Assembly (NCBI RefSeq): GCF_009740285.1
Contig: NZ_CP046566.1
Location: 2,104,501-2,168,500, forward strand
Direction of reading: 5' to 3'
Source of the DNA: Phnomibacter ginsenosidimutans
Lineage (GTDB): Bacteria > Bacteroidota > Bacteroidia > Chitinophagales > Chitinophagaceae
DNA: 64,000 nucleotides
A program made the position numbers and the translations under genes. Each line of letters opens with the position of its first letter. Position 1 is the first letter of the stretch. Of the stretch, positions 55,100 to 62,488 are shown in pieces. The notes beneath the pieces were generated by a model. It was not told where the DNA came from, made no database searches, and was given only the letters and a program-made list of their open reading frames with translations.

Positions 55100-55163
55100 G
55101 AAAATACCCACAATTGGGGATGCAGCAATTTCATTGCAGGTGTACATTCGCTATGAAACCTCC

Positions 55164-56237
55164 ATGAACAGAAAGCATTTTCTCAAAAACTTATTGGGTA
55201 CGGCCGCCGCAGTTACTGCCGGCACCAGCGCCATGGCCATGCCCGACCCACCAGTGGTGCGTAGTTTGGTGCAGCCGCCGTTTTTACAACCTGGCGATAT
55301 CATCGGCATTACCTGCCCGGCCAGCCCACTGGAAATGAAGGAAATGCTCAACTGCAGCAATGCGCTGAAAACATGGGGCTATGAAGTGTGTGTAGGCAAT
55401 ACCGTAGGGCAAGTGTGGGAACGCTTTGGCGGCAGCGATGCCGAACGGGCAGCCGATGTGCAACTCATGCTAGACGATCCTTCCATTAAAGCCATTTTAT
55501 TTGCCCGTGGCGGCTATGGTGCCATGCGTATGATGGACAGGGTAGATTGGACATCGCTACGTAAAAACCCGAAATGGTTGGTGGGCTACAGCGACATTAC
55601 CGCCATTCATTGCCATGTAAATGCACAGTTTGGTTTGCCCACCATTCACGGTGATATGGTCAATGGTTTCAAAGCCATTGAAGACATCAGCACGTTTTCT
55701 TTAAAGCAAGTGATTTCAGGCAAACGTTTTGAATACCGCAGCCCTGCCTTTGGCCTCAACCGCATGGGGCAGGCAACTGCCATGTTGGTAGGTGGCAACC
55801 TGAGTTTGGTAGCCGCCATGCTGGGCAGTAAAAGTGAATTAGATACCGACGGAAAAATCTTATTTCTGGAAGAAGTGAGTGAATACAAATACACGCTTGA
55901 CCGGATGCTGATGTCGCTGAAACGAAGTGGCAAACTGGATAAGTTGGCAGGCCTCATTATGGGTGGCATCACCGCTACCAAAGCCGATGCAGAAACACCT
56001 TTTGCCATGAGTGTAGAAGAAATCATTTTTGAAAAGGTAGCCGACAAAAACTTTCCCGTTTGTTTCAATTTTCCTGCCGGCCATATTCGCAACAACATGG
56101 CGTTGAAGCTGGGCATTTACTACACGTTTCGGGTTACAGAAACCGGCGGCTCCCTCACCGAAATGTCTACCACATTACCCCTCGTTCCATTACCAGATAT
56201 TGACAGTTTGCTGACGCCACCGGAGATTTTACCATAG
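55164..56237 (+). CDS. LD-carboxypeptidase, S66 family, with export signal
   Basis: A 357-residue S66 serine peptidase that cleaves the L-Lys/DAP-D-Ala bond of tetrapeptides during peptidoglycan recycling. Residues 1-26 look like a signal peptide (NRKHFLKNLLGTAAAVTAG), so it is probably exported, unlike the classic cytosolic LdcA. The triad is visible: Ser143 in GYSDIT, Glu236 in FLEE and His307 in PAGHIRNN, with ARGGYG near 114. ATG 55164 chosen over 55134. It starts 65 bases after the alpha-2-macroglobulin gene and 36 bases before a paralogue. Confidence 0.88.
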   Translation: MNRKHFLKNLLGTAAAVTAGTSAMAMPDPPVVRSLVQPPFLQPGDIIGITCPASPLEMKEMLNCSNALKTWGYEVCVGNTVGQVWERFGGSDAERAADVQLMLDDPSIKAILFARGGYGAMRMMDRVDWTSLRKNPKWLVGYSDITAIHCHVNAQFGLPTIHGDMVNGFKAIEDISTFSLKQVISGKRFEYRSPAFGLNRMGQATAMLVGGNLSLVAAMLGSKSELDTDGKILFLEEVSEYKYTLDRMLMSLKRSGKLDKLAGLIMGGITATKADAETPFAMSVEEIIFEKVADKNFPVCFNFPAGHIRNNMALKLGIYYTFRVTETGGSLTEMSTTLPLVPLPDIDSLLTPPEILP

Positions 56238-56273
56238 TCATTCTCCTTATCTTTCGCCATCAATGTTGTATCG

Positions 56274-57191
56274 ATGGCAAAAGCAATCATCACTCCCCCG
56301 TATTTACGTAAAGGCGCCACTGTTGGCATTGTTTGTCCTGCCGGCTACATGCCTGCTGCAAAAACACTGACCTGCCAGCAAACCCTGCAATCATGGGGCT
56401 TTCAGGTAAAGCTGGGTAAGACAGTGGGCCATCAGCATTTCTATTTTTCGGGCACCGATGAAGAACGTTTGCAAGACCTGCAGGCAATGATGGACGATCC
56501 AACAGTAGATGCCATTTTGTGTGGCCGCGGTGGCTACGGCACCAGTCGCATCATCGATCAGCTCAACTGGAAAAAATTTCGCCAGCACCCCAAGTGGATC
56601 ATTGGTTTTAGCGATATCACGGTATTACACAGTTTCCTGTTTACCAAACTCCGCACCGCCAGTTTGCATGCACCCATGGCCAATGCTTTTAACGACGGCG
56701 GCGCCCATGATGAATATGTACAAAGCCTGCGCAAAGCCCTTACGGGAAAGAAAGCCAACTATACCTGTGCCGTACATGCTTGCAATAAACCAGGCAAAGC
56801 CACAGGACAATTGGTGGGTGGCAATTTGAGTTTAATTGCCCATCAAATTGGTACGCCAAGCGATGTGGATACCAAAGGAAAAATCCTGTTTCTGGAAGAT
56901 GTGGGCGAATACCTCTACAATGTAGACCGCATGCTGCTGCAATTAGACAGAGCCGGTAAACTCAAAGGTTTGGCAGGTTTAATCATTGGTGGCTTTACCG
57001 ACAACAAAGACACCACTACGCCCTTTGGCAATACCATTGATGAAATCATTGCGCATCGCATTGCTGCTTATAACTTCCCTGTTTGCTTTGGCTTCCCCGT
57101 AAGCCACGAAAAAGAAAATGTTGCCCTGAAAGTAGGTGCAACATTTTCATTACAAGTAGGTAAACAAAAAGTAATGTTGAAGGAGTTGTGA
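56274..57191 (+). CDS. LD-carboxypeptidase, S66 family, cytoplasmic paralogue
   Basis: A 305-residue S66 peptidase with the same triad: Ser113 in GFSDIT, Glu208 in FLEDVGEYLYNVDRM, His278 in PVSHEK, and GRGGYGTSR near 84. There is no signal peptide, so it should act in the cytoplasm as LdcA does in murein recycling. It shares with its neighbour the order PP-L--G---GI-CPA and NLSL near 184, and both are of similar length from the first conserved motif, pointing to tandem duplication followed by divergence in location. It ends before a repeat-rich convergent gap. Confidence 0.9.
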   Translation: MAKAIITPPYLRKGATVGIVCPAGYMPAAKTLTCQQTLQSWGFQVKLGKTVGHQHFYFSGTDEERLQDLQAMMDDPTVDAILCGRGGYGTSRIIDQLNWKKFRQHPKWIIGFSDITVLHSFLFTKLRTASLHAPMANAFNDGGAHDEYVQSLRKALTGKKANYTCAVHACNKPGKATGQLVGGNLSLIAHQIGTPSDVDTKGKILFLEDVGEYLYNVDRMLLQLDRAGKLKGLAGLIIGGFTDNKDTTTPFGNTIDEIIAHRIAAYNFPVCFGFPVSHEKENVALKVGATFSLQVGKQKVMLKEL

Positions 57192-57206
57192 AGAGGTTGA
57201 TTGGTA

Positions 57207-57305
57207 GATTGGTTAATTAGTGGATTGGTTAATTGATGGATTAGGATAGTTGTCAAATATGTATAAGCATCTACCAACCACCAACCACCAACTATCAACT
57301 ACCAT
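57207..57305. repeat. Low-complexity TGG- and CCAAC-rich tandem repeats between convergent genes
   Basis: On the plus strand two 16-bp units (GATTGGTTAATTAGTG at 57207-57222 and GATTGGTTAATTGATG at 57223-57238) are followed by an A/C-rich block (57271-57305: CTACCAACCACCAACC, then ACTATCAACTACCATC). The two blocks are roughly complementary and could fold together. The same A/C-rich motif is present at 60.3 kb and 61.9 kb. Confidence 0.7.
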
Positions 57306-60151: not shown

Positions 60152-60586
60152 ATTTTAATTTCCAAAATTCAATCTACAGTTTAAAAGAAAATCTGTCGTT
60201 CATCAATCAAACCTATTGAAACACATCAAACTACCATGCCGACACTTAGGCTCTAAAATTTTCGCTAATTACCGTAACTGCAGCTGAAACCGATACAGCA
60301 AAGCCGGCAATTGAAAACCCTTTTTACCAAAAGCTTCTGTAGCCAGCCAACCACAAACTACCAACCCCTACCTGCCAACAACTATCCAATCCTGCCACTT
60401 CGGCCACTTCCGGCCAGCACCTTTGCAAATAATTTTTCCCTGCACTAACCTTGTGTTGTCAACAGCACTACAACAGCTGCCGACAACACAACACCGGATG
60501 ATCATCAGCTCCATAGGAGTCACACTCCACACACACTTTTTATCACCCGTTGCAGCACATACACTGCAACACAAACTCACACAACC
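60152..60586. other. 435-base intergenic region before the cassette
   Basis: No gene is visible. It holds an A/C-rich stretch (about 60350-60387: CCAACCACAAACTACCAACC and following) related to the repeats at 57.3 and 61.9 kb, then a near-duplicated CACTTCGGC / CACTTCCGGC (60396-60415), the promoter-like CACCTTTGCAAA (60418-60429) and, just before the cassette start, a 7-bp hairpin GTTGCAG / CTGCAAC (60549-60555, 60564-60570). The leader is unusually rich in CAC. Confidence 0.45.
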
Positions 60587-61342
60587 ATGGCCAAACAAAA
60601 AGGCATCATCCCCATCGAAGGTACCCTCGGCAACATTACCTTCTACCGTAGCAAAGAAGGCTACCTCATCCGCGAAAAAGGCGGCGTCTCCAAATCCCGC
60701 ATCAGCACAGACCCCGCCTTTCAGCGCACCCGTGAAAACGGCGCCGAATTCGGCCGGGCAGGCACCAGCGGCAAACTCATCCGCACCGCCTTCCGCGAAA
60801 TGCTCCTTAACGTGTCCGACAGCAAAATGGTCAGCCGCCTCACCCAGGTGCTCATGCAGGTCATCAAAGCCGACACCGTCAGCGAACGGGGGCTACGCAA
60901 AGTCAACGGCCCCAACCTCATCTTCCTCAAGGGCTTCGACTTCAACGTAAACGGCAAACTCGCCACCACCCTTTTCGCTCCCTACTCAGCCGACATCAAC
61001 CGCAGCAGTGGCCAACTCGAAATCACCATTCCGCCATTCTCCGCAGCCAACATGATTGCGGCACCGGCGGGTGCCACCCACTTCCGGCTCATCGCCGGTG
61101 GCGCCGCCATCGATTTCGAAGGCAACACCTACGACGCCGCCAACACAGGTACCACCCACCTGCCCCTGAGCGGTACCGATACGGCCGAAATCACCCTCAA
61201 CTGTACCATCACCGCAGCCAGCACCAAACCACTGCTGCTGCTCTTCGGGCTGGAGTTCTACCAAATGGTCAACGACGCTCATTACAGCCTCAAAAACGGG
61301 GCCTTCAACTGCCTCAGCGTTATTGACATCAGCGGCGAATAA
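60587..61342 (+). CDS. Cassette protein A: conserved Bacteroidota protein of unknown function
   Basis: A 251-residue cytosolic-looking protein without signal or membrane segments. The first about 70 residues are basic and strongly patterned: MAKQKGIIPIEGTLGNITFY, KEGYLIREKGGVSK, then DPAFQRTRENGAEFGRAG. I recall this N-terminal pattern from many Bacteroidota hypothetical proteins, but know of no function. Residues about 95-251 look beta-rich (alternating hydrophobic residues, many Thr/Ser/Gly). Third positions are dominated by C (ACC, GCC, CTC, ATC, AAC), unlike most of the window. First of three plus-strand genes that end at a common terminator (61892-61915). Phage or structural origin would fit, but is not shown. 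Confidence 0.8.
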   Translation: MAKQKGIIPIEGTLGNITFYRSKEGYLIREKGGVSKSRISTDPAFQRTRENGAEFGRAGTSGKLIRTAFREMLLNVSDSKMVSRLTQVLMQVIKADTVSERGLRKVNGPNLIFLKGFDFNVNGKLATTLFAPYSADINRSSGQLEITIPPFSAANMIAAPAGATHFRLIAGGAAIDFEGNTYDAANTGTTHLPLSGTDTAEITLNCTITAASTKPLLLLFGLEFYQMVNDAHYSLKNGAFNCLSVIDISGE

Positions 61343-61403
61343 TCCGCCGTCAACCCCACTTGTTCATCACACCCTTTCTCACACACACCAAAAACCACAC
61401 ACC

Positions 61404-61652
61404 ATGAAACAAGTCATGCGCAGAATGCGCAAACCCACCCCGCCTTTCTTCAAAAAGCTCCGCAACATCGGGCTCGTAGTAGCAGGCATCGCCGGTGCCA
61501 TCGCCACCGCTCCCATTGCACTGCCCGCTGCAGTCACCAGCATCGCCGGCTACTTCACCGTCGCCGGCAGCATTGCCTCAGCCGTCAGCCAGCTCACTAC
61601 CCGCGAAGAAAGCCACCCACAACCTTCAAATACCATTGAAGATGTGGAATGA
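61404..61652 (+). CDS. Cassette protein B: small two-helix membrane protein
   Basis: An 82-residue protein: a basic N-terminus (KQVMRRMRKPTPPFFKKLR), two hydrophobic segments at about 21-37 and 41-64 separated by Pro, and a polar acidic tail (REESHPQPSNTIEDVE). Size and plan resemble small holin-like or hydrophobic phage-type proteins, but no motif proves it. I recall the KPTPPFFKKLR N-terminus from other Bacteroidota hypothetical proteins that occur with protein A. It starts 61 bases after A and overlaps C by 11 bases. Same C-rich codon use as A. Confidence 0.72.
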   Translation: MKQVMRRMRKPTPPFFKKLRNIGLVVAGIAGAIATAPIALPAAVTSIAGYFTVAGSIASAVSQLTTREESHPQPSNTIEDVE

Positions 61653-61869
61653 TGCCAAACCGCATGTGCACGATGCACAAAACCTGTCGGGCACCATCGT
61701 CGGTACCCTCGTCGCCATCCTCATCAACATTCCCGCCAAAGACCTCGCCTATACTGCCGCCATGGCCGCAGTAGGCGCCTGCACCAGCTTCCTGGCCTCC
61801 TGTTTGTTGAAATGGCTCACCCGGCGCATCGAACAATGGATCCGGCAAAACAAAACACCCCCTGCATAA
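61642..61869 (+). CDS. Cassette protein C: small two-helix membrane protein
   Basis: A 75-residue protein starting at ATG 61642 (MWNDAKPHVHDAQN), inside the end of gene B (11-base overlap, +1 frame relative to B), so translation is probably coupled. Two hydrophobic segments (about 15-31 and 36-57) are followed by a basic C-terminus (KWLTRRIEQWIRQN), a plan seen in phage holins. No family recognised. The overlap with B and the shared terminator make A, B and C one unit. The longer in-frame ORF from 61495 is antifunctional low-complexity Pro/Ser and is rejected. Confidence 0.65.
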   Translation: MWNDAKPHVHDAQNLSGTIVGTLVAILINIPAKDLAYTAAMAAVGACTSFLASCLLKWLTRRIEQWIRQNKTPPA

Positions 61870-61891
61870 ACCACATGCCCGCATCAACCCC

Positions 61892-61916
61892 AAAACCCGG
61901 CTCCGGCCGGGTTTTT
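61892..61916 (+). terminator. Intrinsic terminator after cassette A-B-C
   Basis: Perfect 10-bp stem AAAACCCGGC / GCCGGGTTTT (61892-61901 and 61906-61915) with a 4-base loop and T's following, 22 bases after gene C's stop. Confidence 0.88.
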
Positions 61917-61949
61917 ATTTGCCCTACCTTGTTTCTTATCCCACGAAAC

Positions 61950-61998
61950 AACTACCAACCATCAACTACCAACCATCAACTACCAACCACCAACCACC
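61950..61998. repeat. 14-bp A/C-rich tandem repeat
   Basis: AACTACCAACCATC at 61950-61963 and 61964-61977, a third copy ending CACC at 61978-61991, and a partial AACCACC at 61992-61998. A/C-rich low-complexity sequence continues to about 62065. It fills the gap between the cassette terminator and the facing helix-turn-helix gene, and matches the repeats at 57.3 and 60.3 kb. Confidence 0.85.
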
Positions 61999-62070
61999 TC
62001 CCATCCAACCCCAAACTAAAAACCAAAAACTAAAAACCTACCAACCTGCCAACCTCCCAACAACAACCCT

Positions 62071-62286
62071 TTACCCCACCAACACGCCCCTCACATCCTC
62101 CTCCGCCAATCCCGTATACATACAAAACTCCCGCACCGTCACCAACGCATTCCGCCGCTTCCCATAATGCCGCCGCACTGCCTCCAGCAGCCGCCGGGCA
62201 CTCCGCTCCTTCTTCCCCGTTATCAACTGAATGTCCTTGGCATAAATCACCACCCGTAAGGGCATACGATGTCCTTGCTTTTGCAT
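62071..62286 (-). CDS. Small helix-turn-helix-like protein facing the cassette
   Basis: A 71-residue basic protein (ATG 62286; the Met at 62265 would give 64 residues). IYAKDIQLITGKKERSARRLLEAVRRHYGK and VTVREFCMYTGLAEEDVRGVLV look like two helix-turn-helix-like units: a short strand, helix, and a GKKERSARRLL helix that could contact DNA. I recall this plan from a frequent small Bacteroidota protein of unknown role. It converges on the cassette across the A/C-rich repeats, and the LytTR gene follows after 200 bases. C-rich codon use resembles the cassette. Confidence 0.7.
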   Translation of the reverse strand: MQKQGHRMPLRVVIYAKDIQLITGKKERSARRLLEAVRRHYGKRRNALVTVREFCMYTGLAEEDVRGVLVG

Positions 62287-62488
62287 AGCATTTGTTTTGG
62301 TGAAACAATACTGCACACACCACCACAACTACTGCACACACCGGCATACACCAGCCGCAGCAGCCCCGGCAGCAGCACCAACCAGCCATAAAAGGTTATA
62401 GGGATTTGTTCTTTCGCCAACAGCAAACCAGCCAGATCGCTTTGGCATAATGTCACGCCTGCAACACGCAAATGCGTATATACTGTTG

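Follow-up and report, generated by a model that had tools for sequence, protein, structure and literature searches.

According to the accessible parts of two reports (PMC13284979; PMC9527704), type 10 secretion employs a phage-derived holin and muralytic enzymes to release proteins, either lytically or without lysis. Here, we examine a compact unit in a 64,000-nucleotide stretch of the Phnomibacter ginsenosidimutans genome (assembly GCF_009740285.1, contig NZ_CP046566.1, positions 2,104,501 to 2,168,500; hereafter "the window", within which all positions are numbered). The unit consists of a head gene (A), two genes for small membrane proteins (B and C), and a gene that faces them (H). We consider it reasonably probable that this unit represents a cut-down version of a cassette found in Bacteroidota, which in its fullest form has a divergent H followed by A-D-B-C; the cassette would be derived from phage lysis genes placed behind a head gene related to DUF6266, and may release A. 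Phage satellites, of which PICI and PLE are known examples, offer a second point of comparison. The cassette was not found described in literature on DUF5675, DUF6266, DUF6943, DUF6876, Bacteroidota phage satellites, holin-endolysin elements, or type 10 secretion, a survey in which subscription journals were mostly uncovered.

The unit contains the following genes and terminator:

60587-61342, plus strand: A, the head gene, 251 aa (open reading frame, ORF)
61404-61652, plus strand: B, a small membrane protein, 82 aa (ORF; 31-row alignment; kin in phage lysis regions)
61642-61869, plus strand: C, a small membrane protein with a basic tail, 75 aa (ORF; 33-row alignment; holin-like by shape only)
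61892-61915, plus strand: an intrinsic terminator 3' of A-B-C (10-bp stem, -18.0 kcal/mol, z -3.74)
62071-62286, minus strand: H, a putative DNA-binding regulator, 71 aa (helix-turn-helix judged by eye only; 33-row alignment)

The original prediction, made from this DNA alone, had described three plus-strand genes with an 11-nt overlap between the end of B and the start of C, a terminator, repeats, and a facing gene; all were located where it had placed them. It had also called B and C holin-like in shape. The best 19-residue hydropathy values of these two proteins (2.17 and 1.72, respectively) are hydrophobic, and those of A (1.28) and H (0.49) are not. For C, a holin role is suggested by shape only, and H may be a regulator. 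A longer H variant of 85 aa, starting at a TTG at 62328, is possible. None of the four proteins has a significant model in Pfam, NCBIfam, or PADLOC; the best match was a chance-level one of H to a ribosomal model (E 0.017). The best PHROGs row pairs H with a family of unknown function (E 0.0075).

A, B, C, and the facing H form a real unit. A pattern-based scan of species genomes yielded 75 A relatives from 125 candidate stretches, in organisms that we take, from their record names, to be Bacteroidota. With a Marivirga plasmid, these make up 76 labelled loci; an A ORF was found in 75, and the one that was dropped is a close relative. Ranking in the match list divided the A loci into 55 close ones (best-segment identity 37-99%) and 20 distant ones (28-40%). 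No further than 3 kb from A, H is present in 49 of the close loci, C in 34, B in 33, and D in 22. For the 43 close loci whose flanks are complete, the gene sets are BCDH (18), BCH (nine), H alone (eight), none of the four (three), CH (two), and BD, BC, and BH (one each). The fullest form is thus found in 18 of 43, and the window has a copy without D. Profiles built from the loci place H on the minus strand ahead of A on the plus strand, followed by D, B, and C; H is usually divergent upstream of A, and in the window it faces the unit from downstream. Spacing is tight: B and C overlap by 1–29 nt in 19 of 24 measured loci, D and B are separated by no more than 10 nt or overlap in 15 of 20, and the A-D gap is at most 1 nt in six of 23 loci and otherwise up to 176 nt (start codons were picked by script). 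The gene order and the short gaps argue for a single operon with translation coupled at its end.

The same association emerged from 395 genomes drawn from the class, in which A occurs in 49, B in 30, and H in 43. A and B are found together in 25 genomes vs. 3.7 expected (p 3e-21) and A and H in 32 vs. 5.3 expected, statistics that ignore the relatedness of the genomes. Of 40 B places, 34 are no more than 4 kb from A; for H, the figure is 37 of 57. The original interpretation is partly supported. Its claim of an undescribed Bacteroidota cassette holds, as do two of the points on which it had been staked: A, B, and C do co-occur, and C has homologues. The original prediction had overlooked gene D, the kinship of A with DUF6266, and the membership of H in the unit.

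Other arrangements were also seen. In ten of the 55 close loci (L011, L012, L015-L017, L022-L025, L101), H and A are accompanied by a facing DUF6876 gene that replaces the lysis genes. One locus (L139; L298) is a near mirror-image pair of cassettes head to head, E-C-B-A-H / H-A-B-C-E, in which E is DUF6943. The genome of the window has a second H-A copy with DUF6876 near a contig start (L004; G000:C1:3354-5500), broken by stops and with A pieces in different frames; the congener discussed below harbors an intact relative, with an integrase (L129).

The genomic context of B links it to phage lysis regions. A pattern scan of IMG/VR returned 38 viral B loci on 37 contigs (L142-L179), and a holin-type gene stands directly upstream of B in 35 of them; two seed holin-type genes match PHROG holin families (E 1.8e-13 and 1.4e-5). 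In two of the other three loci, both on one contig (L178/L179), D is upstream, and in the last, a lysozyme-type endolysin gene directly adjoins B. Within 2.5 kb downstream, 25 of the 38 have an endolysin-type gene, with some contigs ending early. Six B places in the 395 genomes lack A, two of them in prophage lysis regions: in L133, an M15 endolysin, a holin, and B precede tail-like genes, and a match to a major head protein lies close by; in L135, B is followed by a phage lysozyme. The other four comprise L132, a fragment situated within an A element (L136), a match in genome G197 with an E of 9.5e-5, and L134. By eye, L134 resembles a small provirus; it has B, a peptidase gene, and a gene like H (H profile E 4.5e-7). 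H-like genes near a recurring 525–628-aa protein and small membrane-type proteins were noted in L134, L246, L248, and L249, which by eye are possibly small integrated viruses.

D, present in 19 of the 43 close relatives with full flanks, is DUF5675. It was modelled as an L,D-transpeptidase fold of the YkuD type with conserved Cys and His, for which Foldseek's own best E was only 0.048. From this model, D is predicted to be an endolysin-like enzyme; one YkuD-bearing gut phage endolysin is mentioned in the accessible part of PMC13284279. DUF5675 occurs in 133 phage records and D in a phage-like locus (L180). D-B pairs of slightly different sequence lie near both ends of the single 45.5-kb viral contig of L178/L179. 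An origin as a phage module, which had been suggested as one possibility for the whole unit, is supported for B and for the relatives' D.

In the model of A (pLDDT 88.6), a helical N-terminal part of basic composition is joined to a C-terminal β-sandwich. A has no confident structural neighbor and matched no domain of assigned function, the third point on which the prediction had been staked; structure comparisons yielded nothing in favor of the capsid or tape-measure fold that had been suggested. Even at a cut-off of E 1, A reaches no family in Pfam, the DUF6266 model (PF19781) included. When profiles were aligned, however, the N-terminal 75 columns of A paired with DUF6266 (26 rows) at an hhalign probability of 92% (P 6e-7, score 37.9), vs. 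scores of no more than 16.2 in 100 column shuffles; full-length profiles gave 73%. By profile alignment, then, the N-terminal domain of A is remotely related to DUF6266, in keeping with common ancestry. DUF6266 occurs in 18 of the 395 genomes, eight of which also have A (2.2 expected, p 5e-4), and lies within 4 kb of A in eight of 35 places, four of them in tandem in one genome. In L253, DUF6266 occupies the place of A and is followed by C and a facing H, which is the layout of the window; DUF6943 adjoins both families. In L299, a 4.3-kb viral contig, the genes after DUF6266 are one barely above the Pfam holin cut-off, one with a best PHROG labelled endolysin (category head and packaging), and one that by eye encodes a lipoprotein with a membrane helix. 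The genes downstream of DUF6266 in L286 encode what by eye are a membrane protein and a lipoprotein, with a CHAP protein between them (PHROG endolysin E 1e-20; below the Pfam cut-off). Taken with the A loci, these two indicate that head genes of the A/DUF6266 kind precede three different sorts of lysis-type genes. No signal peptide is visible by eye in A or D, as is expected of proteins that pass a holin. Five loci (L053, L064, L066, L068, L069) have A or distant A-like genes a few kb from an mnmE-like gene (by eye); mnmE is a known integration target.

Comparison with a congener's locus (L006) delimits a further feature:

60400-62430: approximate extent of the piece that moved as one (100-nt bins 60401-62400 match L006 at 91-100%, with lower values beyond them)

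The identity in each of these bins includes non-coding DNA. Bins further to the right fall to 59-88%, the neighboring LytTR proteins share 55% identity, and to the left of 60351 no similarity was detected. This high identity across the unit against diverged flanks indicates that the whole unit, with H, was exchanged as one piece. A differs from its L006 counterpart by 16 synonymous and three other changes (dN/dS 0.055); by this computation, A is under selection. The corresponding synonymous and other changes in B (4+2), C (3+0), and H (2+2) are too few to judge. Could the unit be a decayed prophage lysis region with no present function? D is absent from the window, the genome's second A copy is broken, and B and D have phage relatives, all as decay would have it. 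The pattern of changes in A speaks against it, as does the lack of A in the phage and viral records searched. Moreover, in four genomes (L013, L021, L042, L103) the unit stands beside the same run of neighbors; all four retain A, C, and H, three retain B, and two retain D. We deem decay highly improbable. A shared LytTR/histidine kinase neighbor was considered as a mark of vertical descent of the window copy and rejected: gene order and strand differ from those in the four genomes, and only those four agree.

The cassette is probably sometimes carried on integrative elements. In L131, the order is ATPase, rep-like gene, HTH_17, RteC, tyrosine integrase, then divergent H and A-B-C. The circular Marivirga plasmid (L081) has a similar order, RteC left aside, and an integrase also adjoins H in L137, L138, L057, and L101. 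Known defense genes follow the lysis genes in L136 (DarTG, AbiD, Drt2) and L137 (a TIR protein); other loci have none or unknown genes there. In L136 (1-8314), DarTG, AbiD, and the Drt2-type reverse transcriptase lie between the lysis genes and a stretch that, by eye, resembles the final part of the ATPase gene of the element. In L138 (6948-8540), the integrase gene that adjoins the cassette starts ~270 nt past a tRNA-Tyr gene. The notion that mobile copies keep D and resident ones lose it was discarded, as the integrase-bearing L131 and L138 lack D, and L081 and L137 have it.

Such elements, with an excisionase-like HTH gene and lysis genes of their own, could be a phage satellite or an undescribed small virus with the cassette at its core; A and DUF6266 would then serve as its own particle proteins or as helper-hijacking ones, and the window unit would be a remnant. 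The integrase-bearing orders and the defense cargo fit this account. Nonetheless, A was in no phage record or viral contig searched, an integrase lies within 3 kb in just three of the 55 close loci (one-sequence profile), no terminase or capsid gene was seen by eye in the element loci read, no attachment repeat of at least 12 nt was found in the stretch tried at the single tRNA (L138), and copies are kept beside the same neighbors in the four genomes above. We regard this account as unlikely. The defense genes also bear on an abortive-infection unit, in which A or H would sense phage and B-C (with D) would kill the cell. The cassette is patchy (A in 49 of 395 genomes) and mobile, known defense genes accompany some copies, and its effectors are of the lysis type. 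Against this, PADLOC (E up to 0.01) has no match for A, B, C, H, or a relative's D, so the defense unit earlier proposed gained no known family; A and H are often without B, C, and D; and several genomes have 8–11 A-like matches, many partial. This role appears quite improbable.

We return to the reduced, phage-lysis-derived cassette that may release A. Its lysis genes stand behind the head gene with no recognized virion genes: none was recognized by eye among the ORFs at 55–64 kb or in the next 9.5 kb, the whole window not having been scanned for families. Computation shows the gene content, the synteny, the fold predicted for D, the occurrence of B and D in phage surroundings, transfer as one piece, and selection on A. 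The following mechanism is proposed, in which the roles of H as regulator, C as holin, and A as cargo are inferred. H permitting, A, B, and C would be made from a single transcript. B and C would then open the inner membrane, and D, or in the window another cell-wall enzyme, would open the wall. A could then leave, either because some cells lyse or through holin-dependent export without lysis, as in type 10 secretion.

Several observations weigh against this reading. The 20 distant A relatives have no H, B, C, or D within 3 kb, and together with the eight H-only and three empty loci they indicate that A does not depend on the lysis module. D was found neither in the window unit nor elsewhere in its genome, leaving this copy without a wall enzyme of its own. 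B matches no PHROG family, and its viral contigs are largely close relatives and thus represent few independent events; searches of viral contigs brought up no relative of C or H. A spanin-like gene was not seen by eye in the D-B-C loci, and a lipoprotein-plus-helix gene only in L299. Smaller alignments of A with DUF6266 are weak (1.5% with nine rows; then 4% full-length and 37% for the N-terminus). A lysis-type gene is downstream in only two of 21 distinct DUF6266 places, one a weak B match; these places were judged mostly by eye, some with short flanks. Finally, A is no more than a presumed cargo.

As a more tentative extension, which we hold possible but doubtful, A and DUF6266 might be cargo of a Bacteroidota-specific holin-dependent release system. 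Such a system would have arisen more than once, each time out of another phage lysis module; a small integrative element that sometimes bears phage defenses would have spread it, and some Chitinophagaceae would have kept it as a resident locus. The analysis offers a testable role for A and for DUF6266, both hypothetical families, and one based on its fold for DUF5675. Bacteroidota, which are known for type 9 secretion, may in addition have taken up phage lysis modules as a means of releasing proteins.

Two further features of the window lie outside the genes:

61949-62014: A/C-rich tandem repeats
60451-60491: an inverted repeat upstream of A with perfect 10-nt arms, local to the window and not general in relatives

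Arrays resembling the tandem repeats recur at 57195-57304. A conserved H operator was tried as a candidate and rejected: inverted repeats upstream of the 76 loci measure 6.9 nt vs. 6.5 nt in one shuffle each, an excess so slight that the window palindrome is best taken as local. The C-ending codons that had been described as unlike the flanks are real (third-position C of 65% in A, 54% in B, and 51% in C). They represent a plus-strand composition effect, however, because the minus-strand H is G-ending (65%), as is the next gene, LytTR (46%). At 55134-57191, there are two adjacent paralogues that resemble LD-carboxypeptidases by eye, with a self-match of 68% over 202 nt.

How does the cassette compare with described systems? 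Charybdis elements (PMC12324425) were set aside on the ground of their archaeal marine host rather than of gene content. Bacteroidota-type phage and prophage lysis regions (L142-L179, L133, L135) share a homologous B and, in L178/L179, D upstream of B; they are set among head or tail genes, a place taken in the cassette by A and H. With A, DUF6266 (PF19781) shares an alignable N-terminal domain, the place before C and H in L253, and a DUF6943 neighbor, yet A falls below the Pfam model at E 1, and its C-terminal part is not aligned. Like PICI and PLE, cassette loci can have an integrase, a regulator, replication-like and lysis genes, and, in some, defense cargo; unlike them, they have no packaging or capsid-related gene seen by eye and no known helper. 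Type 10 secretion appears, by analogy, to be the nearest known mode. In both, phage-derived holin-like and muralytic genes stand outside a prophage beside a protein with no visible signal peptide. The cassette differs in belonging to another phylum, in the L,D-transpeptidase-like fold of its muralytic protein, in the lack of a spanin seen in its D-B-C form, in sometimes adjoining an integrase, and in having a cargo and an export that are only proposed. The window unit, lacking D, has no counterpart of the muralytic enzyme that is co-encoded in type 10 secretion.
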